In this document: positions 4,819-41,564 of the stretch, in pieces | Position numbering within the stretch: the first letter of the stretch is position 1 | How the letters are laid out: every line of letters starts with the position of its first letter | Virus record (IMG/VR): IMGVR_UViG_3300046792_000051 | Coordinates: 1 to 41,564 of that record | Strand: one strand, 5' to 3' | Origin: a virus | DNA: 41,564 nt | The notes under the pieces: model-generated | The model's database searches: none | What the model saw: the letters and a program-made list of their open reading frames with translations, nothing else | What the model was told of the DNA's origin: nothing | Translations under genes and position numbers: made by a program

Positions 4819-5418
4819 TCAAATGCCCTGCGGCTTTTTTGTTTCTTCCAGCTTCTCATACCAAGCAGCCTCCCGAGCACCTGGCGCTGCGTTCAGTGGA
4901 TCATCCACAGTGGTCAGCGGCAGCGTTCCTTGCTTCGGGTTGCCGTCACCGATCTTGATGGTTACGCGCTGATTCGGCCAAGACCTCGATAGCTCGGCGG
5001 TTTCGCGCATCCGCCGACTGGCGATCAGGCGCTCGGCTGCCGCGACCAGCTCGCGCGCCTCTTTCATGACGGCGCCCATGATCTCGGCCTGACGTTCTGG
5101 CCCTAGGTCGCCCAGGGCGCGCAGGAATTCAGCCTCTTCGCCGACCACGGTAAATGCGGGCAGGTTGCCCTCTGAGTGCTCGGTTAGAAGGTCGACGACC
5201 GACACGCCAAGAGCCCGAGCAAGTCGCTCGACTTCTGCCAGTTTGGCGGATCGCTCCTTGCCGGTGCTGGTCACTGCCGGCTCGGTGTCCAGGTAGTTGC
5301 CGATGGTGTTTGCGGCCACGCCTGCCTGCTTTGACAGGGCGAGAGCCGACAGTTTTGCTGCGCCCATGTAACGGGCAAGGTTCTCGGCAAGGATCTGGTT
5401 TGCGGTCTTTTTGGGCAT
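4819..5418 (-). CDS. CI-like repressor (HTH, no autoprotease domain)
   Basis: Protein of 199 residues. Residues about 8-75 form a Cro/CI-type HTH domain (LSALALSKQAGVAANTIGNY). The C-terminal half (about 95-199) is helical and shows no S24/LexA peptidase motifs (no Ser-Lys dyad context), so induction by RecA-stimulated self-cleavage is not predicted. It faces the Cro-like gene across three operators, one of which overlaps its own start codon, so autoregulation is likely. No good ribosome site precedes the ATG, as for lambda cI from PRM. Residues near 170 contain QGTLPL, a pattern resembling clamp-binding peptides, possibly by chance. Confidence 0.85.
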   Translation of the reverse strand: MPKKTANQILAENLARYMGAAKLSALALSKQAGVAANTIGNYLDTEPAVTSTGKERSAKLAEVERLARALGVSVVDLLTEHSEGNLPAFTVVGEEAEFLRALGDLGPERQAEIMGAVMKEARELVAAAERLIASRRMRETAELSRSWPNQRVTIKIGDGNPKQGTLPLTTVDDPLNAAPGAREAAWYEKLEETKKPQGI

Positions 5419-6324: not shown

Positions 6325-6340
6325 CCGATTGGATTTTTCA

Positions 6341-6712
6341 ATGCAGCGCGACATGTTTCCCATCAACGACCTGCCGGCGCTGCAGTGGGTCGATACCGAA
6401 GTAGTCAAGGGGTGGGCCACATGGCGAGATGCCGTCGTGTGGTGCTGGGAAGGCAGGCCGTTTCGCGGTCAGAACGAGGCGGGCGATCAGGCAATTTTTC
6501 GCATGTGGTGCAAGAAGTATTACGGCCTGAAAGTGCACGCCCCTCACGTCTCTCGCTGGGTCAACAAGAAGACAAAAGCGCCGATGGATTTGCCGCCCGA
6601 TCTGGTCGGCGCCTTCGAGTCATTCACCGGATGGCGCGGCCTGACGCAACGCTTCAGCCGCTCCGCAAAAGTCACAACCGTCGAGGAAATGCAAGCTCGT
6701 CTTGCTGCCTGA
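6341..6712 (+). CDS. Early protein with N-terminal clamp-binding-like peptide
   Basis: Protein of 123 residues from ATG 6341; a TTG at 6329 would add four residues. The first residues, MQRDMFPIND, contain Q-R-D-M-F, which fits the bacterial clamp-binding pentapeptide (QxxLF; compare QADMF in E. coli DnaE). The rest is Trp-rich (WATWRDAVVWCWEGRPF), then a basic HTH-like segment HAPHVSRWVNKKTKAPMDLP. This segment resembles small phage regulators of the CII type, but the match is not decisive. A phage clamp is encoded two genes downstream. Confidence 0.65.
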   Translation: MQRDMFPINDLPALQWVDTEVVKGWATWRDAVVWCWEGRPFRGQNEAGDQAIFRMWCKKYYGLKVHAPHVSRWVNKKTKAPMDLPPDLVGAFESFTGWRGLTQRFSRSAKVTTVEEMQARLAA

Positions 6713-6728
6713 CGACAAGGAGTTAACC

Positions 6729-7025
6729 ATGCTAGGAACAGAAGCCGTCGCACGTGATCGCGCATTTTTCGAACGCAACGCCCAGTTCATGACGCCCACC
6801 GAGCGCGAGCGCTATGCGTGGCTTTCTGGCGCCCCAAACGCGCCGCTTCTGGAGTCTCAATACGATGCCGGCTTTGAGGCTGGCGAGGAAAGTCGGCGCA
6901 TTGAACTCGAATTACGTATTGATGACGCAGAAAACAAAGCAGTCGAACTCGAAGAAGAAAACGACGAGCTGATGGCAGAAGTTGGCGAGCTGAAGGAGCG
7001 CGTTGCTGAGCTGGAGGCGCAATGA
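6729..7025 (+). CDS. Coiled-coil early protein
   Basis: Protein of 98 residues from ATG 6729 with AAGGAG 7 bases upstream. An upstream in-frame start at 6702 lacks a site. Residues about 50-98 are a strongly acidic heptad-repeat coiled coil (VELEEENDELMAEVGELKER). The stop overlaps the clamp gene start (ATGA). Possibly an adaptor for the clamp; family not recognised. Confidence 0.7.
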   Translation: MLGTEAVARDRAFFERNAQFMTPTERERYAWLSGAPNAPLLESQYDAGFEAGEESRRIELELRIDDAENKAVELEEENDELMAEVGELKERVAELEAQ

Positions 7026-8092
7026 CGCCGAAGGCCCTTCTTGAGTTGCTTGCGCTGCCGCTTAGTGTCGCGCCGCGCAATTCGTCGCTGCGCATGCTGC
7101 AGACGCTGCTGATCGAAGACGGGCAGGTGACTGCGTTCGACTGCGCAACCGCCGTCAAGATCGACCTGCGCGAGTTTCGCGTGTTCGACGGTGTGAATGG
7201 ATGCGTGGATGCACACAAGCTGCAGATCGCTCTCTCTACCCTGCAGCCTGCGTGCGAGATCGTCGCCATTCAGTCGGACGACAAGCTGGTCATCAAAGGC
7301 GGATCGGCGCGACGCACGCTGCCGATGCTGCCAGCGCTTGACTATGCGCGTCCGGCATGGGGTGAACCCGATCAGCCACTTAAAGAGCCGAAGCTTCTTG
7401 CGCGCGCCCTGCGCTTTGTTCGGCATGCGTCGGCCCAGCATGACATTCGCCCCTATCTCAATGGCGTAACGGCTGCCGGCGGCGACCTTCTTGCTTCGGA
7501 TGGCGCGCGCGCCGCCAAGTTCATCGATGCAGCCCAGGCATGCGGCATTGATGCTGAGTGCATCTTTCCCGTGACGGATCTGGATCGAATGATTTCGATG
7601 GCAGAGCAGCCCGGCGAATTCATGGCGGGCATTGTCAAGCGCAACCCAAAAGATGCGCGCGCCTACGTGATGCGCGCCGGCATCGTGACCATGCAATTCC
7701 TGTTAGTCGAGGCCAAAGCCGCGCCGTTTGATCGAATCTTCCCGGCCTTGCACGCGCCCAATCAGATGACCGTGCGCCGATCTGATTTGCTATCGGTTTG
7801 CAACGGCATGGAAAAGATTTGGCGGGCCGACAGCAAGCTCCCGAGCTGCGCCAGCTTCAATTTTGACGGCACAACCATTCGCATCGAGCTGCCCTCCGAT
7901 CAGGCTGCAGAAACCATTGAGGCGAGCGGCGCCTCACTTGAGTTTGGATTCCGCCCCTATCAGCTTGGCAACGCACTCGATGCGCTTTCCGGCGAAGAGG
8001 TCACGCTGTCGCAAGGCAAGCAGGGCGGCGCGATCTACATCACCGGCAGCGACCCGCAGACATCCTGCGTCGTGATGCCTACGAAGGTTTGA
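7022..8092 (+). CDS. DnaN-like sliding clamp (DNA polymerase III beta-like)
   Basis: Protein of 356 residues, close to the usual 366 of bacterial DnaN, with the expected three-domain length. The central motif near 140-170, HDIRPYLNGVTAAGGDLLAS followed by DGARAAKF, matches the DnaN signature in which RxYLNG precedes TDGHRLA. The C-terminus ends CVVMPTKV, like the VMPMRL end of DnaN. Clamps encircle DNA and tether polymerases and repair enzymes. The gene overlaps the coiled-coil gene by ATGA and precedes the replication initiator and helicase loader, so it is part of the phage replication module. Divergence from cellular DnaN is strong. Whether it forms rings with, or instead of, host clamp is unknown. 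Confidence 0.8.
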   Translation: MTPKALLELLALPLSVAPRNSSLRMLQTLLIEDGQVTAFDCATAVKIDLREFRVFDGVNGCVDAHKLQIALSTLQPACEIVAIQSDDKLVIKGGSARRTLPMLPALDYARPAWGEPDQPLKEPKLLARALRFVRHASAQHDIRPYLNGVTAAGGDLLASDGARAAKFIDAAQACGIDAECIFPVTDLDRMISMAEQPGEFMAGIVKRNPKDARAYVMRAGIVTMQFLLVEAKAAPFDRIFPALHAPNQMTVRRSDLLSVCNGMEKIWRADSKLPSCASFNFDGTTIRIELPSDQAAETIEASGASLEFGFRPYQLGNALDALSGEEVTLSQGKQGGAIYITGSDPQTSCVVMPTKV

Positions 8093-8094
8093 CT

Positions 8095-8133
8095 ATGAGA
8101 GCCCGCAACACCGACCCCAAGGAGATTGCGTGA
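8095..8133 (+). CDS. 12-codon leader ORF coupled to the replication gene
   Basis: ATG 8095 is preceded by GAAGG and encodes MRARNTDPKEIA. Its TGA overlaps the GTG start of the next gene (GTGA). The ribosome site of the next gene (AAGGAG) lies inside it. It could couple translation of the initiator to ribosome flow from the clamp gene, or be incidental. Confidence 0.35.
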   Translation: MRARNTDPKEIA

Positions 8134-9005
8134 CGGCACGCCCCGCACCATACCCAGCCGACACCAAGGCCAAGGGCTGGCGGTTTGAGCTGGATCTGGA
8201 GCGCGTTCTCCAGTCTGACACCTGGGCGCTTGCAGCTGAAGTCGCCATGGCCCAGCAAACGCTACTGATGATCTGGACGGTCGCATGGTTGCAGGTTCCG
8301 TGCGGCTCGATGCCGTCCGACCCAGAAGTCGTGCGCGCTAAGGTCAAGGTGCCGCCGAAGCTGTGGGCTCCTATGCGAGACATCGTTTTGCGCGGCTGGT
8401 GGCTTGCTGATGACGGGCGGCTGTATCACGACACCATCGTCGAGCGCGTGCAAGACATGCTCGGGCGCAAGCAGTCCGAGCGCCAGCGCAAGGCCGACTA
8501 CCGCGCAAAGATGGACGCCCAAAGACTGGCGCAGTCGTCCGGCAATGTCCCACAAATGTCCCACGGGACAGACGCAGGACAGACACCGGACGGACACGGG
8601 AAAGACGACACCGGAACCGGAACCGGAACCGGAACCGGAACCAGTAATACAAATACAAGCCCCCCTCTATCGCGCGCGAGCCTTGCCGACATCGAGGTGT
8701 CGCAAATGACCCCGGACTGGTCGCCATCCGATGGGTTCAGGACCACCGCAAAACTCGCCGGCATTCCGCTCGCCGATGAAGCCCTCATGGCATCGGGAAT
8801 CGCCGAGTTTCGGTCGTACTGGCTCACCAGACCGGGCGACGTGAAGACCCAAGCCGAGTGGGAGCACGCCCTGCTCAAGAGCCTGAAGCATGCCCAGGCC
8901 AACACCAAGCAAACCACCGCCAAAACCGCACGCAAGACCGGGCACACCGGCTTCGATGCAATCGACTACACCGCAGGAGTGAACCCCGATGGAACACTTG
9001 CCTAA
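8130..9005 (+). CDS. DUF1376/DnaT-like replication protein
   Basis: Protein of 291 residues from GTG 8130 (AAGGAG upstream). The N-terminal part (about 10-125) resembles DUF1376-type winged-helix initiator domains. A Thr/Gly linker (about 158-172) follows, then a C-terminal DnaT-like DNA-binding region (about 193-255: TPDWSPSDGFRTTAKLAGIP, then EFRSYWLTRPGDVKTQAEWE). It should bind single-stranded or origin DNA and, with the DnaC-like protein, load host DnaB. The stop lies inside the next gene, so translation is coupled. The linker is coded by a hexanucleotide repeat. Confidence 0.8.
   Translation: MTARPAPYPADTKAKGWRFELDLERVLQSDTWALAAEVAMAQQTLLMIWTVAWLQVPCGSMPSDPEVVRAKVKVPPKLWAPMRDIVLRGWWLADDGRLYHDTIVERVQDMLGRKQSERQRKADYRAKMDAQRLAQSSGNVPQMSHGTDAGQTPDGHGKDDTGTGTGTGTGTSNTNTSPPLSRASLADIEVSQMTPDWSPSDGFRTTAKLAGIPLADEALMASGIAEFRSYWLTRPGDVKTQAEWEHALLKSLKHAQANTKQTTAKTARKTGHTGFDAIDYTAGVNPDGTLA
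8611..8642 (+). repeat. Hexanucleotide microsatellite (ccggaa)5 in the initiator gene
   Basis: Five perfect ccggaa units plus cc code for alternating Thr-Gly in the interdomain linker. Slippage would change linker length in steps of two residues without frameshift. Confidence 0.9.
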
Positions 9006-9750
9006 CGCCCCGCAAACCCGCGCCGATACATGCGCAGAGCATGGCGACTTCGAGGCCAAAAACCTCTTCGGTCGAATCTGGTCGAAGTGCCCGGTGTGCG
9101 ACGCGAAACGCGCCGAAGAAGACCGCGCGCGAACCGCGCAAATGGAGCGCGAGCACCGAGAAAACCGTGCTCGAAAATTGCTCGGTCGTGCCGCCATCCC
9201 GGCCCGCTTCATCGGTCGAGGATTCGACAACTTCGAGGCCGACACAGATGCCAAGCGGCAGGCGCTGACCACGCTGCGCGACTACTCCGAGTCGTTCGAC
9301 GACTACGCCAAAAACGGGCGCGGTCTGATCCTCTCGGGCAAACCGGGAACAGGGAAAAGCCATCTCGCTGCCGCAGTGCTTCAGGCGCACATCGAGCGCG
9401 ACGTGCTGTACGCAACGTGTCTTGACCTGATTCGCATGGTGCGCGAGACGTGGCGCAAAGACTCCGACCAGTCTGAGCGCCAAGTGTTGGCCTACCTGGG
9501 CGGGTTAGATCTGCTGGTGATCGACGAAATGGGCGTGCAGTACGGCACCGAGGGCGAGCAAACGATTCTGTTCGACATTCTCGACGCCCGTTACCGCGAC
9601 ATGCAGCCGACCATCCTGCTCACGAACCAGGGCGCCGAAGGTCTGCGCGGATACCTGGGTGATCGAACCTTCGACCGGCTGCGCGAGACGTGCCGCATCG
9701 TGGCTTTCGAGTGGGAGAGCTACCGACCGAAGGCGAGGGCTGCGGCATGA
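8989..9750 (+). CDS. DnaC-like helicase loader (AAA+ ATPase)
   Basis: Protein of 253 residues from ATG 8989 with AGGAG upstream. N-terminal Cys pair motifs (TCAEHG and CPVC near 14-38) suggest a zinc site. The AAA+ core has Walker A GKPGTGKS near 118-125, Walker B LLVIDE near 177 and sensor segment ILLTNQ near 206. This is the DnaC/IstB organisation. It should deliver host DnaB to the phage origin with the upstream DnaT-like protein. The stop overlaps the next gene by ATGA. Confidence 0.92.
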   Translation: MEHLPNAPQTRADTCAEHGDFEAKNLFGRIWSKCPVCDAKRAEEDRARTAQMEREHRENRARKLLGRAAIPARFIGRGFDNFEADTDAKRQALTTLRDYSESFDDYAKNGRGLILSGKPGTGKSHLAAAVLQAHIERDVLYATCLDLIRMVRETWRKDSDQSERQVLAYLGGLDLLVIDEMGVQYGTEGEQTILFDILDARYRDMQPTILLTNQGAEGLRGYLGDRTFDRLRETCRIVAFEWESYRPKARAAA

Positions 9751-34288: not shown

Positions 34289-35254
34289 CTACCCCGCCTT
34301 TTTCTTGCCGATGGTGGCCACGGCATCAAGCAGAGAATCAGAGCTAAGGTGCGCGTAACGCTTGGTCGATTGCGCTGATTTGTGGCCTAACACAGCGCCC
34401 ACGGTGTAGAGGTTCACGCCCGAGTTAATCATCTCTGATGCGCTGGAATGGCGCAGGTCATGAAACCTTAGATCGGTGTAGCCTAGACCCTGGGCTGCCT
34501 TGCTGAAGCAGCCCTGAACCGTTCTGACGTGGATTGTTCGCGGCCAGCGCCTGGCGATGTGGGCAACCTTCCCATGCACCGGGATCATGCGGCGCTCGCC
34601 GTTCTTGGTGTCGCTCAGTAACCAGCCGCGTTCAGTCGGTTCAGCCCTCAAAACCTCACCCAGTCTCATCCCGGAATAGAAGGCGACCAGCGCCACGGCC
34701 CGGGCGTCTCGGTTCGTCATGGCTCGGGCTATCTTGAGCATATCCAGCCGCGTGATGTAGCGGTGTCGCTCGTTCTTGACCTTGGGCAGAACCAGGCGCT
34801 CAGCCGGGTCGTGCTGGCCTAGGCCGTGTGTCTTCCATGCCCACCGGCAGGCGGCGCGCAGGTAGGCCATTCGGTTTCGGATGGTGGCCGGCTTCAGGTG
34901 TGCGGCTTGCTGCTTTGCGTAGGCCCTTGCCACGCCTGCCAGCTCGTCGATGTAGCGCCCACGGTAGGCGGCTTCGCACTGGGCCAGTTCGCGGGTCAGA
35001 ATCGCTTGATTCTTGAGCCCCGGCGCGTGCTCTGTCAGGTAGAGCAGCAGCGCCTCAGAGATCAGGGGGCGGCGCTTTGCCGCACCAGTTGCAACGGCGA
35101 ACAATCTGCCGTCTTGCTCGCTTGAGTAGGCTTGCGCGTCTTCACGACTCCACTCTTTCGGAAGAAGTTTTGTAATGCGCTGTCGCTGTCCGTTAACGAT
35201 ACGACTGAATTCGTAGCGCCAGCGCTTGCGGCTTTTGTCGTAGTAGATCGGCAT
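34289..35254 (-). CDS. int: Tyrosine-family integrase
   Basis: Protein of 321 residues. The N-terminal arm-binding-like part is followed by a core-binding SAM-like region (about 75-160). The catalytic domain has YSGMRLGE (Arg), RFHDLRHSSAS (HxxR), VLGHKSAQSTKRYAHLS (His and Tyr nucleophile). It catalyses site-specific recombination at the adjacent tRNA-Leu core. The 5' 190 bases overlap the excisionase-like gene in another frame. Last gene of the leftward operon. Confidence 0.95.
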   Translation of the reverse strand: MPIYYDKSRKRWRYEFSRIVNGQRQRITKLLPKEWSREDAQAYSSEQDGRLFAVATGAAKRRPLISEALLLYLTEHAPGLKNQAILTRELAQCEAAYRGRYIDELAGVARAYAKQQAAHLKPATIRNRMAYLRAACRWAWKTHGLGQHDPAERLVLPKVKNERHRYITRLDMLKIARAMTNRDARAVALVAFYSGMRLGEVLRAEPTERGWLLSDTKNGERRMIPVHGKVAHIARRWPRTIHVRTVQGCFSKAAQGLGYTDLRFHDLRHSSASEMINSGVNLYTVGAVLGHKSAQSTKRYAHLSSDSLLDAVATIGKKKAG

Positions 35255-36375: not shown

Positions 36376-36822
36376 TCACCGCACCCCCTCAGCCAGCGCA
36401 CGAATGGCGGCAGCAAGCTCCTCGCATGCATCGCGAGCGGCCCAATCGGCCTCGTCTGCGACTTGGTACTCGGTGCGCTTTTTGTCTGCCAACTTCGCCG
36501 CCTCTTTCAGAACAAGCTTCGTGTATTGCGCGAGCGCGTCAGGCGTGAATATGAGGTTGCCATTCGAGACATACGTCCGATTTCCGTAGTCCTTGACCAC
36601 GACGTAGGTTGCGCCAGCTTCACGCGCCAGCTTCTCCACGTCGAAACCAAGCGCCTCTTTCGACACGTCTTGCGCATGTGTAGAGTCGTTCGGCTTGAGT
36701 GGCTCAAATCTCAGTCCGCAATCTGCGCAAGACCAAAAGCCGCTTGGTGCTCCGGTATCTTCATACACCCATGTTTTTATCGTCGTGTGCTGGCACTTGC
36801 TATCAGTGTCAGTGGTGCTCAT
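36376..36822 (-). CDS. Early protein with N-terminal Cys-rich motif
   Basis: Protein of 148 residues. C-x-H at 10-12 and CADC at about 32-35 (GFWSCADCGLRFEPL) form a zinc-ribbon-like start. The rest is helical (LAREAGATYVVVKDYGNRTY, AADKKRTE-type helices). ATGA overlap with the upstream gene. No family assigned. Confidence 0.65.
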   Translation of the reverse strand: MSTTDTDSKCQHTTIKTWVYEDTGAPSGFWSCADCGLRFEPLKPNDSTHAQDVSKEALGFDVEKLAREAGATYVVVKDYGNRTYVSNGNLIFTPDALAQYTKLVLKEAAKLADKKRTEYQVADEADWAARDACEELAAAIRALAEGVR

Positions 36823-37637
36823 GGTGTGGGTTCCTCCCCGCCAGTGATGCCGGCAGGTGGCGCGGGCAGGGGCATCCAGCTTTCATAAGGGGGCGTGTAG
36901 CTGACGCCGTGGCCGCCGATCATTTCAACGTGTTCGGCGTTGTTATGCCAATCCATCCAGCAGCCTTCCTCCTTGAAATCAAAGCGGTGGCACTCTTCTC
37001 CATCACTGTCTTTCCAGCGGACAACAACGCACTCGGTCATGTCGTCAGGAGCCGACTCAATCGGCAACCACCCTTGCGCCTGCGGTGCTGCCGGGGCGGA
37101 TGAGATCAGCGCAACATAACGGTCGATTTTGTTTTCCGGCACCGCCGCAACAGTAGGGTATGCCGGGGCGGATGAGAGCATGGCGCGGGCTTTGTCTCGA
37201 ATGACGCCAAGCCAATGGCGCCTTGATGCTTTGTCTGATCCGCCCGCCAAGCTGTTCAATGGCTCACTTCCAGCGGTGGCAATGTTCTCGACGAATTCAC
37301 GCCACCCTGCCGGCACCGCTGCCGCTTGCTCCCCTGGATGCGACAACAGCGCATCGCACACCCGCTTCACCACATCCCGATTCGGCGCCTGGTCGCTGAT
37401 CTCTACAAAACCACGCAGCCACTTTGCAGCCGTCTGGGCGTTTGCAAATTGCTCGGGGGTGGGCTGTTGCGCCTGGGGCTTGGTGAGGGCGGCTTGCCAT
37501 GTCAGCCACATCCATTGCGTGTACATGTCGGCAAATTCGTTGCGCTCTTCGCTCCAGTCATCAGCGAAGCTCAAGCCCTCACGTTCACCGATAAGTTTCA
37601 AACCGGTGATAAACGCCTCTCGCTGTGTGTCAGTCAT
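36819..37637 (-). CDS. Early protein with C-terminal DUF551-like domain
   Basis: Predicted 272-residue protein from ATG 37637 (AGGAAGG upstream). The helical N-terminal half (MTDTQREAFITGLKLIGERE) is followed by an Ala/Pro linker. The C-terminal domain starts GWLPIESAPDDMTECVVVRW and ends ESWMPLPAPP, matching DUF551-type domains frequent in phage early operons. Function unknown. Confidence 0.7.
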   Translation of the reverse strand: MTDTQREAFITGLKLIGEREGLSFADDWSEERNEFADMYTQWMWLTWQAALTKPQAQQPTPEQFANAQTAAKWLRGFVEISDQAPNRDVVKRVCDALLSHPGEQAAAVPAGWREFVENIATAGSEPLNSLAGGSDKASRRHWLGVIRDKARAMLSSAPAYPTVAAVPENKIDRYVALISSAPAAPQAQGWLPIESAPDDMTECVVVRWKDSDGEECHRFDFKEEGCWMDWHNNAEHVEMIGGHGVSYTPPYESWMPLPAPPAGITGGEEPTP

Positions 37638-37767
37638 TGGGGTGGGCCTTCCTAAGCAACAGCCAGTCGATGAAATTGAGCCAACGATTCGCGCCAGCAC
37701 ATGATGCAAGGTACCCGCACAAGGCAAGCCCGCAAATAGACAGCACGATGGCGATGATTGCTGTCAT
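37630..37767 (-). CDS. Small membrane protein, 45 residues
   Basis: ATG 37767 overlaps the preceding HTH gene stop (ATGA). An N-terminal transmembrane helix (MTAIIAIVLSICGLALCGYL) precedes a short polar tail with WLNFIDWLLLRKAHPND. The stop lies 8 bases inside the next gene. Family not recognised. Confidence 0.6.
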   Translation of the reverse strand: MTAIIAIVLSICGLALCGYLASCAGANRWLNFIDWLLLRKAHPND

Positions 37768-37973
37768 GCCTCGCCTTTCAAAACCTCGTACAGCGGCACG
37801 GCGCGAAGTCCCAAGGCGTTAAGCGTGGCCTCGCTCGGTGCTACTTTTTTACCGTTCATCAAACGGCTAATAAATGATTTGTCTACGCCAGTTGCAAGCG
37901 CTGCGGCTCTGACGCCGCCGTGCTTGGTGACGATCTTCGTAACCGCTTCTTCAAGTGTCACCAACTTAGCCAT
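37764..37973 (-). CDS. Small HTH regulator
   Basis: Predicted 69-residue protein (MAKLVTLEEAVTKIVTKHGG start) with HTH AAALATGVDKSFISRLMNGK followed by ATLNALGLRAVPLYEVLKGE. This is a Cro/C1-type domain of minimal size. It overlaps the previous gene by 8 bases. It may regulate part of the leftward operon. Confidence 0.75.
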   Translation of the reverse strand: MAKLVTLEEAVTKIVTKHGGVRAAALATGVDKSFISRLMNGKKVAPSEATLNALGLRAVPLYEVLKGEA

Positions 37974-38559
37974 TGCTGCCCCCACCCTGCGATAGCGCCG
38001 ATTGCACGATCTCATTGATCGTCTCTTCGGCTTGTGATCGAGACTGGCCCAGAATGCCAAGATGCACATGCCATGCCGGCTTAATGCGCTCGACAAACTC
38101 GGCAATGCTTGGCTCACTCACCACCGCCCCGGCCTGCTGTTGACCGTCCGCAAAACCTTGTCGATAGTTGACCCAATCAGGCTTGAATGGCGCTGCCTGC
38201 GCTGGTGCTGTAGCTGGCTGCGCGGCGAGGGCTTCCAGGTAGTCGAGAATCGTCGTCAGCGTTTTACGGTGCACCGGGACGTATTCGTTATTGTGCTGAA
38301 CAGCGTCATCGACCCACAGGCGCATGTTGTCCACCAGCTTCTTGCAGCGATCCACCAACCCCACCCGGTCTGCCTGCAACTGACGATCCACCGTAGCGGG
38401 GTCAGGAGGGCATTCGAGGTCCGCTTGATCGGGTGGCGACGGTTGGGCTAGGGCTTCAAACACAACGTCGAGAAGCTCGGCCGTCTGGCTGTTTGTTGTG
38501 TAGCCCAGCTCTCGAAACTTGGTGTGCAACGCCTCTCTCAATTTCGATTCAGTGTTCAT
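37966..38559 (-). CDS. Hypothetical early protein
   Basis: Predicted 197-residue protein from ATG 38559 (ATGA overlap with the previous gene). Helical N-terminus (MNTESKLREALHTKFRELGY), a middle with CKKLVDNMRLWVDDAVQHNN and an Ala/Pro-rich linker. A second helical part contains WVNYRQGFADGQQQAG. Of the type found in phage accessory operons; no domain recognised. Confidence 0.65.
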   Translation of the reverse strand: MNTESKLREALHTKFRELGYTTNSQTAELLDVVFEALAQPSPPDQADLECPPDPATVDRQLQADRVGLVDRCKKLVDNMRLWVDDAVQHNNEYVPVHRKTLTTILDYLEALAAQPATAPAQAAPFKPDWVNYRQGFADGQQQAGAVVSEPSIAEFVERIKPAWHVHLGILGQSRSQAEETINEIVQSALSQGGGSNG

Positions 38560-38891
38560 GACTTTTGCCCCTGATGGCCCATCACCCACGCGTCGTCATT
38601 ACATTCGAGGGCCAGTGGATTTCCTGGGTGAGTGCAACAACCGCACGGCGCGGAAATGAAGCACTCACACCCACGATCACCGTAGACCGCCTCGAAGTCT
38701 TCGTTGTCTGCCGCTGAGTCATCGGTCAGTCGAAGGCGAACCATCTTCGGCGGTTTATCACTGGCTTGCGCACTTGACCAGTCCGAAGCTGATGCGCGCA
38801 TTGGCTCATTCTTTTTTACTGCACGGACTAGTTGGCCGAGATACTTCGGCACGTCGTCGGGCAATCGCATTGCGTTCGGAAGTAGGCTCAC
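38556..38891 (-). CDS. Hypothetical early protein with Cys cluster
   Basis: Predicted 111-residue protein from GTG 38891 (AAGGAG upstream, GTGA overlap). The C-terminal half has CECFISAPCGCCTHPGNP followed by LECND, a dense Cys cluster that may bind metal. No family recognised. Confidence 0.65.
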   Translation of the reverse strand: MSLLPNAMRLPDDVPKYLGQLVRAVKKNEPMRASASDWSSAQASDKPPKMVRLRLTDDSAADNEDFEAVYGDRGCECFISAPCGCCTHPGNPLALECNDDAWVMGHQGQKS

Positions 38892-39802
38892 GGCCGCTCC
38901 TTGATGTTGTGGAGGGATTCGAGGGTGAAAAGAACTGCGAGGGCATAGTCCAGGGTGCTGCGCCCGCGCATAAGTGCCTCGTGCTGCTCATCAGTCATCG
39001 GCACAGGCTTGGCGGGCTGTGTAAGCGGGTGGCATTCAGGAGCATCAACATCAATGCCGAACGTGCCGCCCAAGTCGTACACACCGCGAACGTGCAGATA
39101 CTGTTCAATGCCATCAGGCCAGCGGGCGCGGATCAGATACTCCGGGGTCATTGACGGCCGTGCTGCGGGCTCAGGCTTCGACAGACCATATTCGCGGCCC
39201 ATGTCCCAAGCCTCGCGTGTCGGCTTGCCTTCTGGATATGGGTTGCTCAACTCAGATCGGCGAGCTTGCCCAACGCCCTGTTCATAAGCCGTGGTGATCT
39301 GCAATACCTCGAAGTTGCCAACTTTGGCGGGCTGTGCTGGCTGGGGTGCCGACCACGCTGCCACAGCGCGCCCATACTTGAAGGCAAGCTCTTTGTCCTG
39401 CGGCCTCAAATGCTGACCCGTGGCCGCGTAGTAAAGCTGCTCCAGGTCTTTGTCCGCAACAGCCTCGCCACGCTGCGACAGCGCTTCGAGCCATGCGGCG
39501 TCGCGTTCGGCGAGTAGGGCGTGGATTTGATCGGCGGTGTAGACGTACTGCTTTTTGTCGGTCTTGTAGCCATCCGCAAAGTAGCCCCAAAACTCAGATG
39601 TGTTGGGCGGCGATTGGCGAACTCCGACAATTTCGCCGATGTGCTCAGGCAGCTTCGGCAGGGGTGGGGTGGTGGTCATGTTCTGTTCGTCCTCTTCGCT
39701 TTCTTGGCAATTCGTTCTGCCGCATGAGTCGCATTGAGTGTGGGTAAGGTTCGAGAGTGGGCCTCGCCATATGACGTGGCCGCCGCAATATGAGCACTTC
39801 AC
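38888..39802 (-). CDS. Early protein: zinc ribbon plus hypothetical domain
   Basis: Predicted 304-residue protein from GTG 39802 (GAGGGG upstream, one base after the preceding stop). The first 35 residues form a zinc ribbon (KCSYCGGH and QCDSCGRTNC). A second start at ATG 39679 would give 263 residues without it. Later segments include SQRGEAVADKDLEQLYYAAT and MTPEYLIRARWPDGIEQYLH. Which start is used is unclear; both may be. Confidence 0.6.
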   Translation of the reverse strand: MKCSYCGGHVIWRGPLSNLTHTQCDSCGRTNCQESEEDEQNMTTTPPLPKLPEHIGEIVGVRQSPPNTSEFWGYFADGYKTDKKQYVYTADQIHALLAERDAAWLEALSQRGEAVADKDLEQLYYAATGQHLRPQDKELAFKYGRAVAAWSAPQPAQPAKVGNFEVLQITTAYEQGVGQARRSELSNPYPEGKPTREAWDMGREYGLSKPEPAARPSMTPEYLIRARWPDGIEQYLHVRGVYDLGGTFGIDVDAPECHPLTQPAKPVPMTDEQHEALMRGRSTLDYALAVLFTLESLHNIKERP

Positions 39803-39803
39803 C

Positions 39804-40217
39804 TCACACCCCCTCAGCGCCAAGTGCGGCGCGATTCCTAATGCTTGCGTAGGCGCCATCAAGCAGGCTTCGCAGGCGGGATACTTCTTTCTCAAGATCG
39901 CGATTGTCCTGAACGAGAACGCCATACGCTTCTTTGGCTCCTTCTTCGGCCAATACAAGCATGTCCCGCTCCAGCGTCACGCGGTCAACCTGAGCCAGCA
40001 ACGCCGCCTCACGCTCTGAGCCCATGCCGTTTAGGCGGGCTTGCTCTTGCACTTCGGCGCTGGCGCGGTCTAGGTCTGTGAGTAGGGCGCGCGTGTCATG
40101 CGCGTACTGAGCCTGGGCGCTGCGGGATATCTGGGCATCAACGACGGCAAGCAGTTTGCGCAACCGGCCAACATGGTCGTCGGCGGCCAGCGCCTTGCGT
40201 ATCGGTTCGTGGGTCAT
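39804..40217 (-). CDS. Coiled-coil early protein
   Basis: Predicted 137-residue protein (MTHEPIRKALAADDHVGRLR start), ATGA-coupled to the gene before. Two long helices with heptads (EREAALLAQVDRVTLERDML, NRDLEKEVSRLRSLLDGAYA). No family assigned. Confidence 0.65.
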   Translation of the reverse strand: MTHEPIRKALAADDHVGRLRKLLAVVDAQISRSAQAQYAHDTRALLTDLDRASAEVQEQARLNGMGSEREAALLAQVDRVTLERDMLVLAEEGAKEAYGVLVQDNRDLEKEVSRLRSLLDGAYASIRNRAALGAEGV

Positions 40218-40459
40218 TTGGTCACCTCACCCTTGCTCGGGTCAGAGGCAAGGCCTCGCCAGGGCAGGTTTTGTTTTGATGACGCGAACTCTCGTTCCTT
40301 GCCGACGTTTTCGTCGGAGTAACCAAATGTCTTGCCGTTCCACCAGCATTTGCCGATATTCGATGGTTCTCCTTCTTTTCCATACTCGCGCTCATATGCG
40401 CCCACTCGAACTGGCCTCACCTCAGGCGGAAACCACCCCGTCAATTTCGGATCACTCAC
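40214..40459 (-). CDS. Small early protein
   Basis: Predicted 81-residue protein from GTG 40459 (AGGAG upstream, inside the end of the previous gene). GWFPPEVRPVRVGAYEREYG and CWWNGKTFGY suggest a compact beta domain. Similar small proteins occur in phage accessory regions. Function unknown. Confidence 0.6.
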   Translation of the reverse strand: MSDPKLTGWFPPEVRPVRVGAYEREYGKEGEPSNIGKCWWNGKTFGYSDENVGKEREFASSKQNLPWRGLASDPSKGEVTK

Positions 40460-40799
40460 GGCTTGCTCCTGTTGCGCGGGCGATGGCTGCGCGGGCTTTC
40501 TTGAAGGGTTCATCAAACTCAACGTCGATTCCTGCCGGGTAGTCACTGGATAGATTGGCCGATACATGGCATTCGAGGGCTCGAAGCGCCTCCAACAGAT
40601 CAGGTGCGGCGGCAATCAATGCTGCATTGGCTGCCATCTGTGCTTCATCGGCCTCCTGCGATTCCTCGGTTGCGTGGTTGATGTCAAGCAAGCAAATGCC
40701 GTGATCGAATCCAGGCGCAACAATGGTCGTGTCTGACCAAGAGTTGTTGACGACCTTCCACGGCCCCGGTGTGTGCGCTTTGTTGGGTTGGGTGGGCAT
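40452..40799 (-). CDS. Conserved phage accessory protein (HTPGPW type)
   Basis: Predicted 115-residue protein from ATG 40799 (GGGGAG upstream). KAHTPGPWKVVNNSWSDTTI at the start and AANAALIAAAPDLLEALRAL followed by KARAAIARATG near the end form a pattern common to small phage accessory proteins. Molecular role unknown. Confidence 0.75.
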   Translation of the reverse strand: MPTQPNKAHTPGPWKVVNNSWSDTTIVAPGFDHGICLLDINHATEESQEADEAQMAANAALIAAAPDLLEALRALECHVSANLSSDYPAGIDVEFDEPFKKARAAIARATGASRE

Positions 40800-40801
40800 G
40801 G

Positions 40802-41011
40802 TTACTCCCCTGATGAGCCGTAGCCGTCGCCGTAGCCGTAGCCGTAGCCGTCGCCGGAGCCGTCGCCGTAGCCGGAGCCGTCGCCGGAGCCGTAGCCGTA
40901 GCCGTCGCCGTAGCCGTCGCCGGAGCCGTCGCCGTAGCCGGAGCCGTCGCCGGAGCCGGAGCCGTAGCCGTCGCCGTAGCCGTCGCCGGAGCGAAACGCA
41001 TGCTTAGGCAT
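40802..41011 (-). CDS. (Gly-X)n low-complexity protein, X = Asp, Tyr or Ser
   Basis: Predicted 69-residue protein. After MPKHAFRS every second residue from about 9 to 66 is Gly; the alternate residue is Asp, Tyr or Ser (GDGYGDGYGSGSGDGSGYGD). The ATG overlaps the previous stop, and AAGGAG lies upstream. Codons at X are GAC, TAC or TCC only. Probably disordered; possible metal- or surface-binding or condensate-like behaviour is speculation. Confidence 0.7.
   Translation of the reverse strand: MPKHAFRSGDGYGDGYGSGSGDGSGYGDGSGDGYGDGYGYGSGDGSGYGDGSGDGYGYGYGDGYGSSGE
40813..40992. repeat. Imperfect 6-bp tandem repeat inside the (Gly-X)n gene
   Basis: About 30 consecutive units of the form NNgccg on the plus strand, with the first two bases ta, tc or ga/gg, coding X and Gly. 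Larger blocks (for example tcgccggagccgtcgccg) recur, showing growth by slippage or unequal exchange. The frame is always kept. Confidence 0.85.
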
Positions 41012-41363
41012 GGATTGACTCCTTGGCTTTTGTGCTGCACGGGATCAACTCACACACGCCGGTAAGCGCAATTTCAGGGTTCACCACATCCAGTTTTGAC
41101 TTGGCTTTGTTGATGCCGTTTTGAGCGACACCAGACAATGCAACACCGTCAGCGGCTTTCCATGACCAGAGTCGAGTGCTGTTTTTGAGGATGACGCTCT
41201 CACCGTCAACACTCACGACTTCGCCCGCATGAACGCCAGCCGAATAGCAGCGCGCAATCACGTATCGACCCACAAACGGATGTGCCGATTGAGTGGATTG
41301 CGTTGCGCCAAACAGTGCGGCCAATTCTTTAGTTTGTCCGATAGTCAGTTCATTGATATTCAT
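41004..41363 (-). CDS. DUF6948-like phage protein
   Basis: Predicted 119-residue protein from ATG 41363 (GGAGAG upstream). HPFVGRYVIARCYSAGVHAG, then VILKNSTRLWSWKAADGVAL and a CELIPCS end match the DUF6948-type proteins of phages. Function unknown. It starts 24 bases after the DUF4116 gene stop, in the same operon. Confidence 0.75.
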   Translation of the reverse strand: MNINELTIGQTKELAALFGATQSTQSAHPFVGRYVIARCYSAGVHAGEVVSVDGESVILKNSTRLWSWKAADGVALSGVAQNGINKAKSKLDVVNPEIALTGVCELIPCSTKAKESIHA

Positions 41364-41387: not shown

Positions 41388-41564
41388 TCAGGCTTCAACT
41401 TCAATGCCGACCTTCGCAGCGATTGAAATGAACCACTCCAAAACTTTGACGTACTGCAGCGCGCCGCCATTGGATTCAACAGCCTTGAGGCACACGGCCT
41501 CGGTCTGGTCTTTGACGTACTGCAGCGCGTAGCCATTGGATTCAACAGCCTTGAGGCACACGGC
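41388..41564 (-). CDS. DUF4116-type repeat protein, C-terminal part (runs off contig end)
   Basis: C-terminal continuation of the gene at 1-272. The frame is open at the contig edge, carries one NGY and one NGG unit, then a unique tail VLEWFISIAAKVGIEVEA and TGA at 41390-41388. The number of units between the ends is not resolved by the sequence. Confidence 0.8.
   Translation of the reverse strand, partial: AVCLKAVESNGYALQYVKDQTEAVCLKAVESNGGALQYVKVLEWFISIAAKVGIEVEA
41450..41564. repeat. 66-bp tandem coding repeat, right-hand part
   Basis: Two units at the contig end. Positions 41444-41564 are identical to 53-173. Joining the ends directly does not keep the 66-bp phase; about 25 bases, or an overlap choice, are needed. 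Confidence 0.95.

Follow-up and report, generated by a model that had tools for sequence, protein, structure and literature searches.

What role does a beta-type sliding clamp play in a temperate phage that shows no DNA polymerase of its own? The question arises in a 41,564-base IMG/VR virus record, analysed here over its whole length (the window), where a DnaN-like gene occupies positions 7022–8092 of the forward strand. DNA polymerases of families A, B and C have no match in this record, therefore any clamp it encodes would have to work with enzymes of the host. The literature that we searched offers no answer to why polymerase-less phages carry a beta clamp.

A tyrosine integrase (reverse strand, 34289–35254, PHROG 1) and a CI-like repressor (reverse strand, 4819–5418) indicate that the phage is temperate. 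Its structural genes are of P22 type (a portal of PHROG 156, a scaffold, Hc3 and a P22 gp7-like ejection protein); by its gene content the phage would be a P22-like podovirus. It also encodes a RecT-like annealing protein (reverse strand, 381–1367), a RecE-like exonuclease (reverse strand, 1364–2482) and a DNA methyltransferase. From the methyltransferase to the contig end runs a block of leftward ORFs (reverse strand, 36376–41363), nearly all without a PHROG or Pfam match; an array of 12/18-bp repeats (AGCCGT) lies at 40816–40992, in a leftward gene region that has no family match. The left end (1–230) carries a 66-bp tandem repeat that recurs at the right end (41444–41564) with 121 identical bases, which suggests that the contig closes on itself through this repeat; since the ends share these bases, the record may be nearly complete. 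The host is probably a betaproteobacterium, because relatives of the phage DnaC-like protein occur in an Aquabacterium MAG, the only one found in the bacterial genome collection, and in Burkholderia phages, the top matches among phage records.

The clamp ORF encodes 356 residues, with clamp domains at approximately 1–115, 120–240 and 245–356. As the preliminary description stated, it contains an RPYLNG signature (forward strand, 7448–7465; R152–G157 of E. coli DnaN), followed by DGARAA (forward strand, 7499–7516; DGHRLA, residues 173–178 in E. coli), the altered core of the partner pocket, and its C-terminus reads VMPTKV. The profile of PHROG 947, "DNA polymerase processivity factor", matches residues 5–355 of the 356 with E=1.3e-30, the alignment spanning profile positions 11–364 of 368. 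A phmmer search against PDB sequences aligns the protein over its full length with the Stenotrophomonas and Pseudomonas beta clamps (E=2.4e-12 to 1e-11). The NCBIfam DnaN model TIGR00663 also matches, at E=1.2e-8, but the score of 34.3 bits does not reach the equivalog cut-off of 137.65 bits, and none of the Pfam models PF00712, PF02767 and PF02768 matches at E up to 1. Curated DnaN models miss proteins like this clamp; other phage clamps do pass Pfam, with all three domains in Lalka27a and BenchScraper and two in Psul1.

We modelled the monomer with AF2, using as input an alignment of 13 phage clamps from IMG/VR. The model is of moderate confidence (mean pLDDT 70.4, pTM 0.60) and has the helix and strand order expected of three tandem clamp domains. 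Searched with Foldseek, its top 50 PDB rows are all DnaN (E around 1e-20), and many named rows from a viral library are phage beta clamps. VIA-align superposes it on beta clamps with Z-scores of 19.4–20.6 over 310–331 residues, covering 1–356; the 7–8 Å rmsd of these alignments probably reflects uncertain angles between the modelled domains. The core glycines and prolines of the family are kept. Because the PHROG 947, phmmer and TIGR00663 matches are joined by the predicted fold, the resemblance is not a chance one: the product of 7022–8092 is a full-length DnaN homologue. The two checks proposed in the preliminary description, three tandem clamp domains in a predicted structure and similarity to DnaN in profile searches, have both come out in its favour.

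The gene sits in a tight replication operon. This opens with a 127-residue protein (forward strand, 6329–6712), a homologue of which lies near dnaC in the Aquabacterium MAG prophage (L104), and continues with a 107-residue coiled-coil protein (forward strand, 6702–7025). The TGA of the latter and the ATG of the clamp gene overlap in an ATGA (forward strand, 7022–7025), through which translation of the clamp would be coupled to that of its upstream neighbour. Downstream come a DnaT-like replication initiation protein of 291 residues (forward strand, 8130–9005; PF17948, the DnaT DNA-binding domain, E=4e-12; PHROG 1408) and a DnaC-like helicase loader of 253 residues (forward strand, 8989–9750; PHROG 50, E=3e-70). 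As the layout around CI is lambda-like, this position would put the clamp with the early genes. The picture given earlier, in which a temperate podovirus has a DnaN-like clamp next to genes for DnaT- and DnaC-like proteins, agrees with PHROG 947, PF17948, PHROG 50, the integrase and CI, and the P22-type genes. In the Aquabacterium MAG, a lipoprotein-like gene (SPFH-type by eye; L104:6240–7052) is found upstream of dnaC, near the place equivalent to that of the clamp.

No close relative of the clamp was found in IMG/VR, GTDB genome contigs or phage records; the IMG/VR and GTDB scans used short exact peptide patterns, by which distant relatives could be missed. Plasmids yielded only DnaN at 24–32% identity and no direct relative, nor did one appear at E≤1e-22 when about 770 more genomes, from the order and the class of Aquabacterium, were searched. 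Burkholderiaceae genomes gave their best matches at 28–35% identity by local alignment, and these look like chromosomal DnaN. Some of these genomes have a second DnaN-like gene (L123 in G285, L124 in G121), L123 with the pocket changes H175N and M362S. In a tree of 37 sequences the phage clamp has the longest branch (7.77 changes per site) and falls, weakly, with the DnaN of betaproteobacteria.

The clamp is absent from the IMG/VR phages with a related DnaC (48–81% identity, and one weak match) and from the Aquabacterium MAG locus with the dnaC relative; in these clamp-less relatives the dnaT-like gene is preceded by other small genes. Nor did a clamp appear in the regions retrieved from 80 phages with a related portal, of which only some extend far enough upstream. 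Since relatives of the phage have this dnaT-dnaC pair but do without the clamp, gene content indicates that it is an accessory gain in this phage group. Such an accessory status, the very long branch and the lack of conserved relatives would also suit a captured host-like dnaN that drifts without function. Yet the frame is intact over 356 codons, its start and stop codons fit the operon, the codon usage matches that of the phage's other genes, and core and fold residues are kept: a decaying passenger is the least likely of the explanations considered, and we give it very little credence.

What the divergence has changed can be read from the functional residues, listed in E. coli numbering after PMC11139829 and PMC5042465. 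Residues D150 and R152 of loop II, essential in the E. coli clamp (PMC5042465), are both kept, as are L155, G174, R176, R246, V360, M362 and P363 of the partner pocket. The pocket changes are T172S, H175A, L177A, P242A, N320R, Y323Q, M364T and R365K. Altogether 8 of 17 pocket residues are identical to E. coli, the lowest number among the clamps compared, and the conserved pocket made of R152, L155, T172, H175, L177, P242, N320, Y323 and M362–R365 is not retained as a whole. Fifteen pocket columns have a conservation of 90% or more in 30 other clamps; the phage protein keeps 7 of the 15, the others 12–15. We see no sign that the pocket has been lost preferentially over other parts of the protein, where 18 of 33 conserved columns are kept.

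L177, P242 and N320 are present in nearly every other clamp sampled. P242A and Y323Q are less certain than H175A, L177A and N320R, since a proline and a tyrosine sit one residue away. We also considered whether an altered pocket is unique to this phage clamp and ruled this out: actinophage, Thermus and cyanophage clamps drift too, and with the more distant phage clamps included 10–12 of 17 pocket residues are kept; therefore only the extent of the change and the losses of L177, P242 and N320 are special here.

The pore and the dimer interface are changed as well. At positions that touch DNA in E. coli, or neighbour those that do, we find R73H, R80S, R197V and K198T, and R24 is probably replaced by N. 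The summed charge of the pore helices is +2, at the low end of the set, where the phage clamp is not alone. How R24, I272 and L273 are placed varies with the alignment, MAFFT disagreeing with phmmer, which gives I/W for I272/L273. In the dimer core, I78 has become alanine and F106 arginine, and charged interface partners are lost. No relative sharing the changes of pocket, pore and interface was found in the collections searched.

These substitutions bear on how the clamp would act on the host. The preliminary description had proposed that mixed rings might poison host replication; the dimer-core changes and lost charged partners disfavour this and suggest a private interface instead. More broadly, an imperfect clamp could serve as a decoy, titrating the host clamp loader or forming mixed rings and so slowing host replication. 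Phages do attack DnaN: Twort Gp168 blocks the DNA channel of the host clamp (PMC11139829), and a decoy would reach the same end by another route. Subsite I of the pocket, bound by the delta subunit of the clamp loader (PMC11139829), is partly kept here. However, a decoy would be expected to retain the pocket, and a poison acting through mixed rings the interface, whereas H175A, L177A, N320R, I78A and F106R alter both, which makes this reading less likely; the gene, moreover, lies between phage replication genes. We regard a decoy as improbable.

The main rival is a clamp fold that has been repurposed and is no longer a processivity factor encircling DNA, for example as a scaffold for RecE/RecT, for DnaT/DnaC or for the upstream coiled-coil protein. 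The failed DnaN cut-off and the absence of any Pfam clamp domain, when other phage clamps pass Pfam, would fit such a change of function, as would the longest branch of the tree, the poorly conserved pocket and the changed pore and dimer positions. A scan of the phage proteins for clamp-binding motifs is in line with it too: there is no canonical QLxLF and no convincing partner. A QTILF in DnaC is unconvincing, being common to clamp-less relatives. Against this, the three domains, the core glycines and prolines, D150 and R152 have all been kept, and drifted pockets also occur in clamps of Arthrobacter, Thermus, Synechococcus and Mycobacterium phages whose context looks functional. Repurposing is thus possible, if unlikely.

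We favour, with a probability of roughly 0.55, a beta-type clamp dedicated to the phage, which would serve phage DNA once DnaT and DnaC have directed the loading of host DnaB. Homology and fold, the tight operon, its place among the early genes, the codon usage, the retained D150, R152 and other pocket residues, the lack of a family A, B or C polymerase and a similar layout in phages Lalka27a and M1EM-1 all speak for it. The clamp would be an early product, its translation coupled to that of the replication operon, while the DnaT- and DnaC-like proteins, as judged from their families, would load host DnaB at the phage origin. It would then assemble on primed phage DNA as a homodimeric ring of its own, presumably loaded by the host clamp loader, and could tether host polymerase and/or partners chosen by the phage to phage DNA. 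The changed pocket would lower the affinity for ordinary QLxLF motifs and shift the choice of partners. Because the dimer core has changed, phage homodimers should be favoured over mixed rings with host DnaN. The replacement of pore residues, of I78 and F106 and of half of the pocket may hamper loading or the binding of polymerase. The altered pocket would fit the earlier suggestion that polymerase or repair partners are redirected, but the search for a phage partner with a canonical clamp-binding motif gave none.

A stronger version of the dedicated clamp, which we put forward tentatively and consider rather doubtful, is an orthogonal one: with its own dimer interface and partner code, it would operate alongside the host clamp, the two sharing neither subunits nor ordinary QLxLF partners. 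If true, it would amount to a separate tool-belt on the phage's own DNA. The changed pocket and interface constitute a natural test of whether such a clamp works with host Pol III or with a different set of partners, and biochemistry could gain an orthogonal clamp from this protein.

It had been supposed that a phage of this type would normally use the host clamp, so that a private one is surprising. This overstates the case, since about 100 phage records, several of them from temperate phages, contain full-length DnaN relatives. A tblastn search with a plasmid DnaN found relatives in 117 phage records, 98 of them over at least 80% of the length. Some of the 117 are bacterial contamination, e.g. 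L148 with its dnaA-dnaN-recF. Genuine phage clamps include those of temperate phages or prophages, namely Aurantimonas AmM-1 (CI), Paracoccus Psul1 (integrase), Microcystis Mae-JY04 (CI) and a prophage of M. abscessus; another is carried by Rhizobium phage 16-3, which we take to be temperate. Phage-encoded DnaN (PHROG 947) is already known as a kind, and what is new here is the strong divergence.

Single-domain pieces of the clamp are common in phages and seem to be mislabelled. PHROG 3007, labelled "RusA-like Holliday junction resolvase", appears to comprise proteins of about 170–190 residues that match the central domain of DnaN only; examples are Bcep781 gp15 (L009:3953–4534), EP23 (L139:2998–3510) and many enterobacterial phages. 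On Bcep781 gp15, PF02767 scores 28.0 bits against a cut-off of 27; EP23 falls below it.

Compared with bacterial DnaN (TIGR00663; E. coli 2POL), the phage clamp agrees in length, in its three clamp domains, in the RxYLNG and DGxR motifs and in the VMP tail. It differs in scoring below the equivalog cut-off, in lacking about the first five residues, in H175A, L177A, N320R, M364T and R365K of the pocket and in its replaced pore and dimer core. The PHROG 947 factors of Rhizobium 16-3, Aurantimonas AmM-1, Paracoccus Psul1 and Microcystis Mae-JY04 are likewise phage-borne and full-length, several of them from temperate phages, but these four keep 17 of 17 E. coli pocket residues, against 8 here. 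Closer in this respect are the divergent clamps of Thermus phage Lalka27a, Arthrobacter phages BenchScraper and Jawnski, Synechococcus phage S-H1 and the M. abscessus prophage, whose pockets have drifted to 10–11 of 17; L177 (replaced by Ile in the M. abscessus prophage), P242 and N320 are all retained there, unlike in the window clamp. Twort Gp168 is, as here, a phage protein of the clamp system, but it is an inhibitor that binds the DNA channel of the host clamp and is not described as a clamp itself (PMC11139829). In gene order, the clamp of Salinibacter phage M1EM-1 adjoins a primase-like gene, and Lalka27a brings together RecT, a clamp, an O-like initiator and a DnaB-like helicase, following the same logic as the phage described here.
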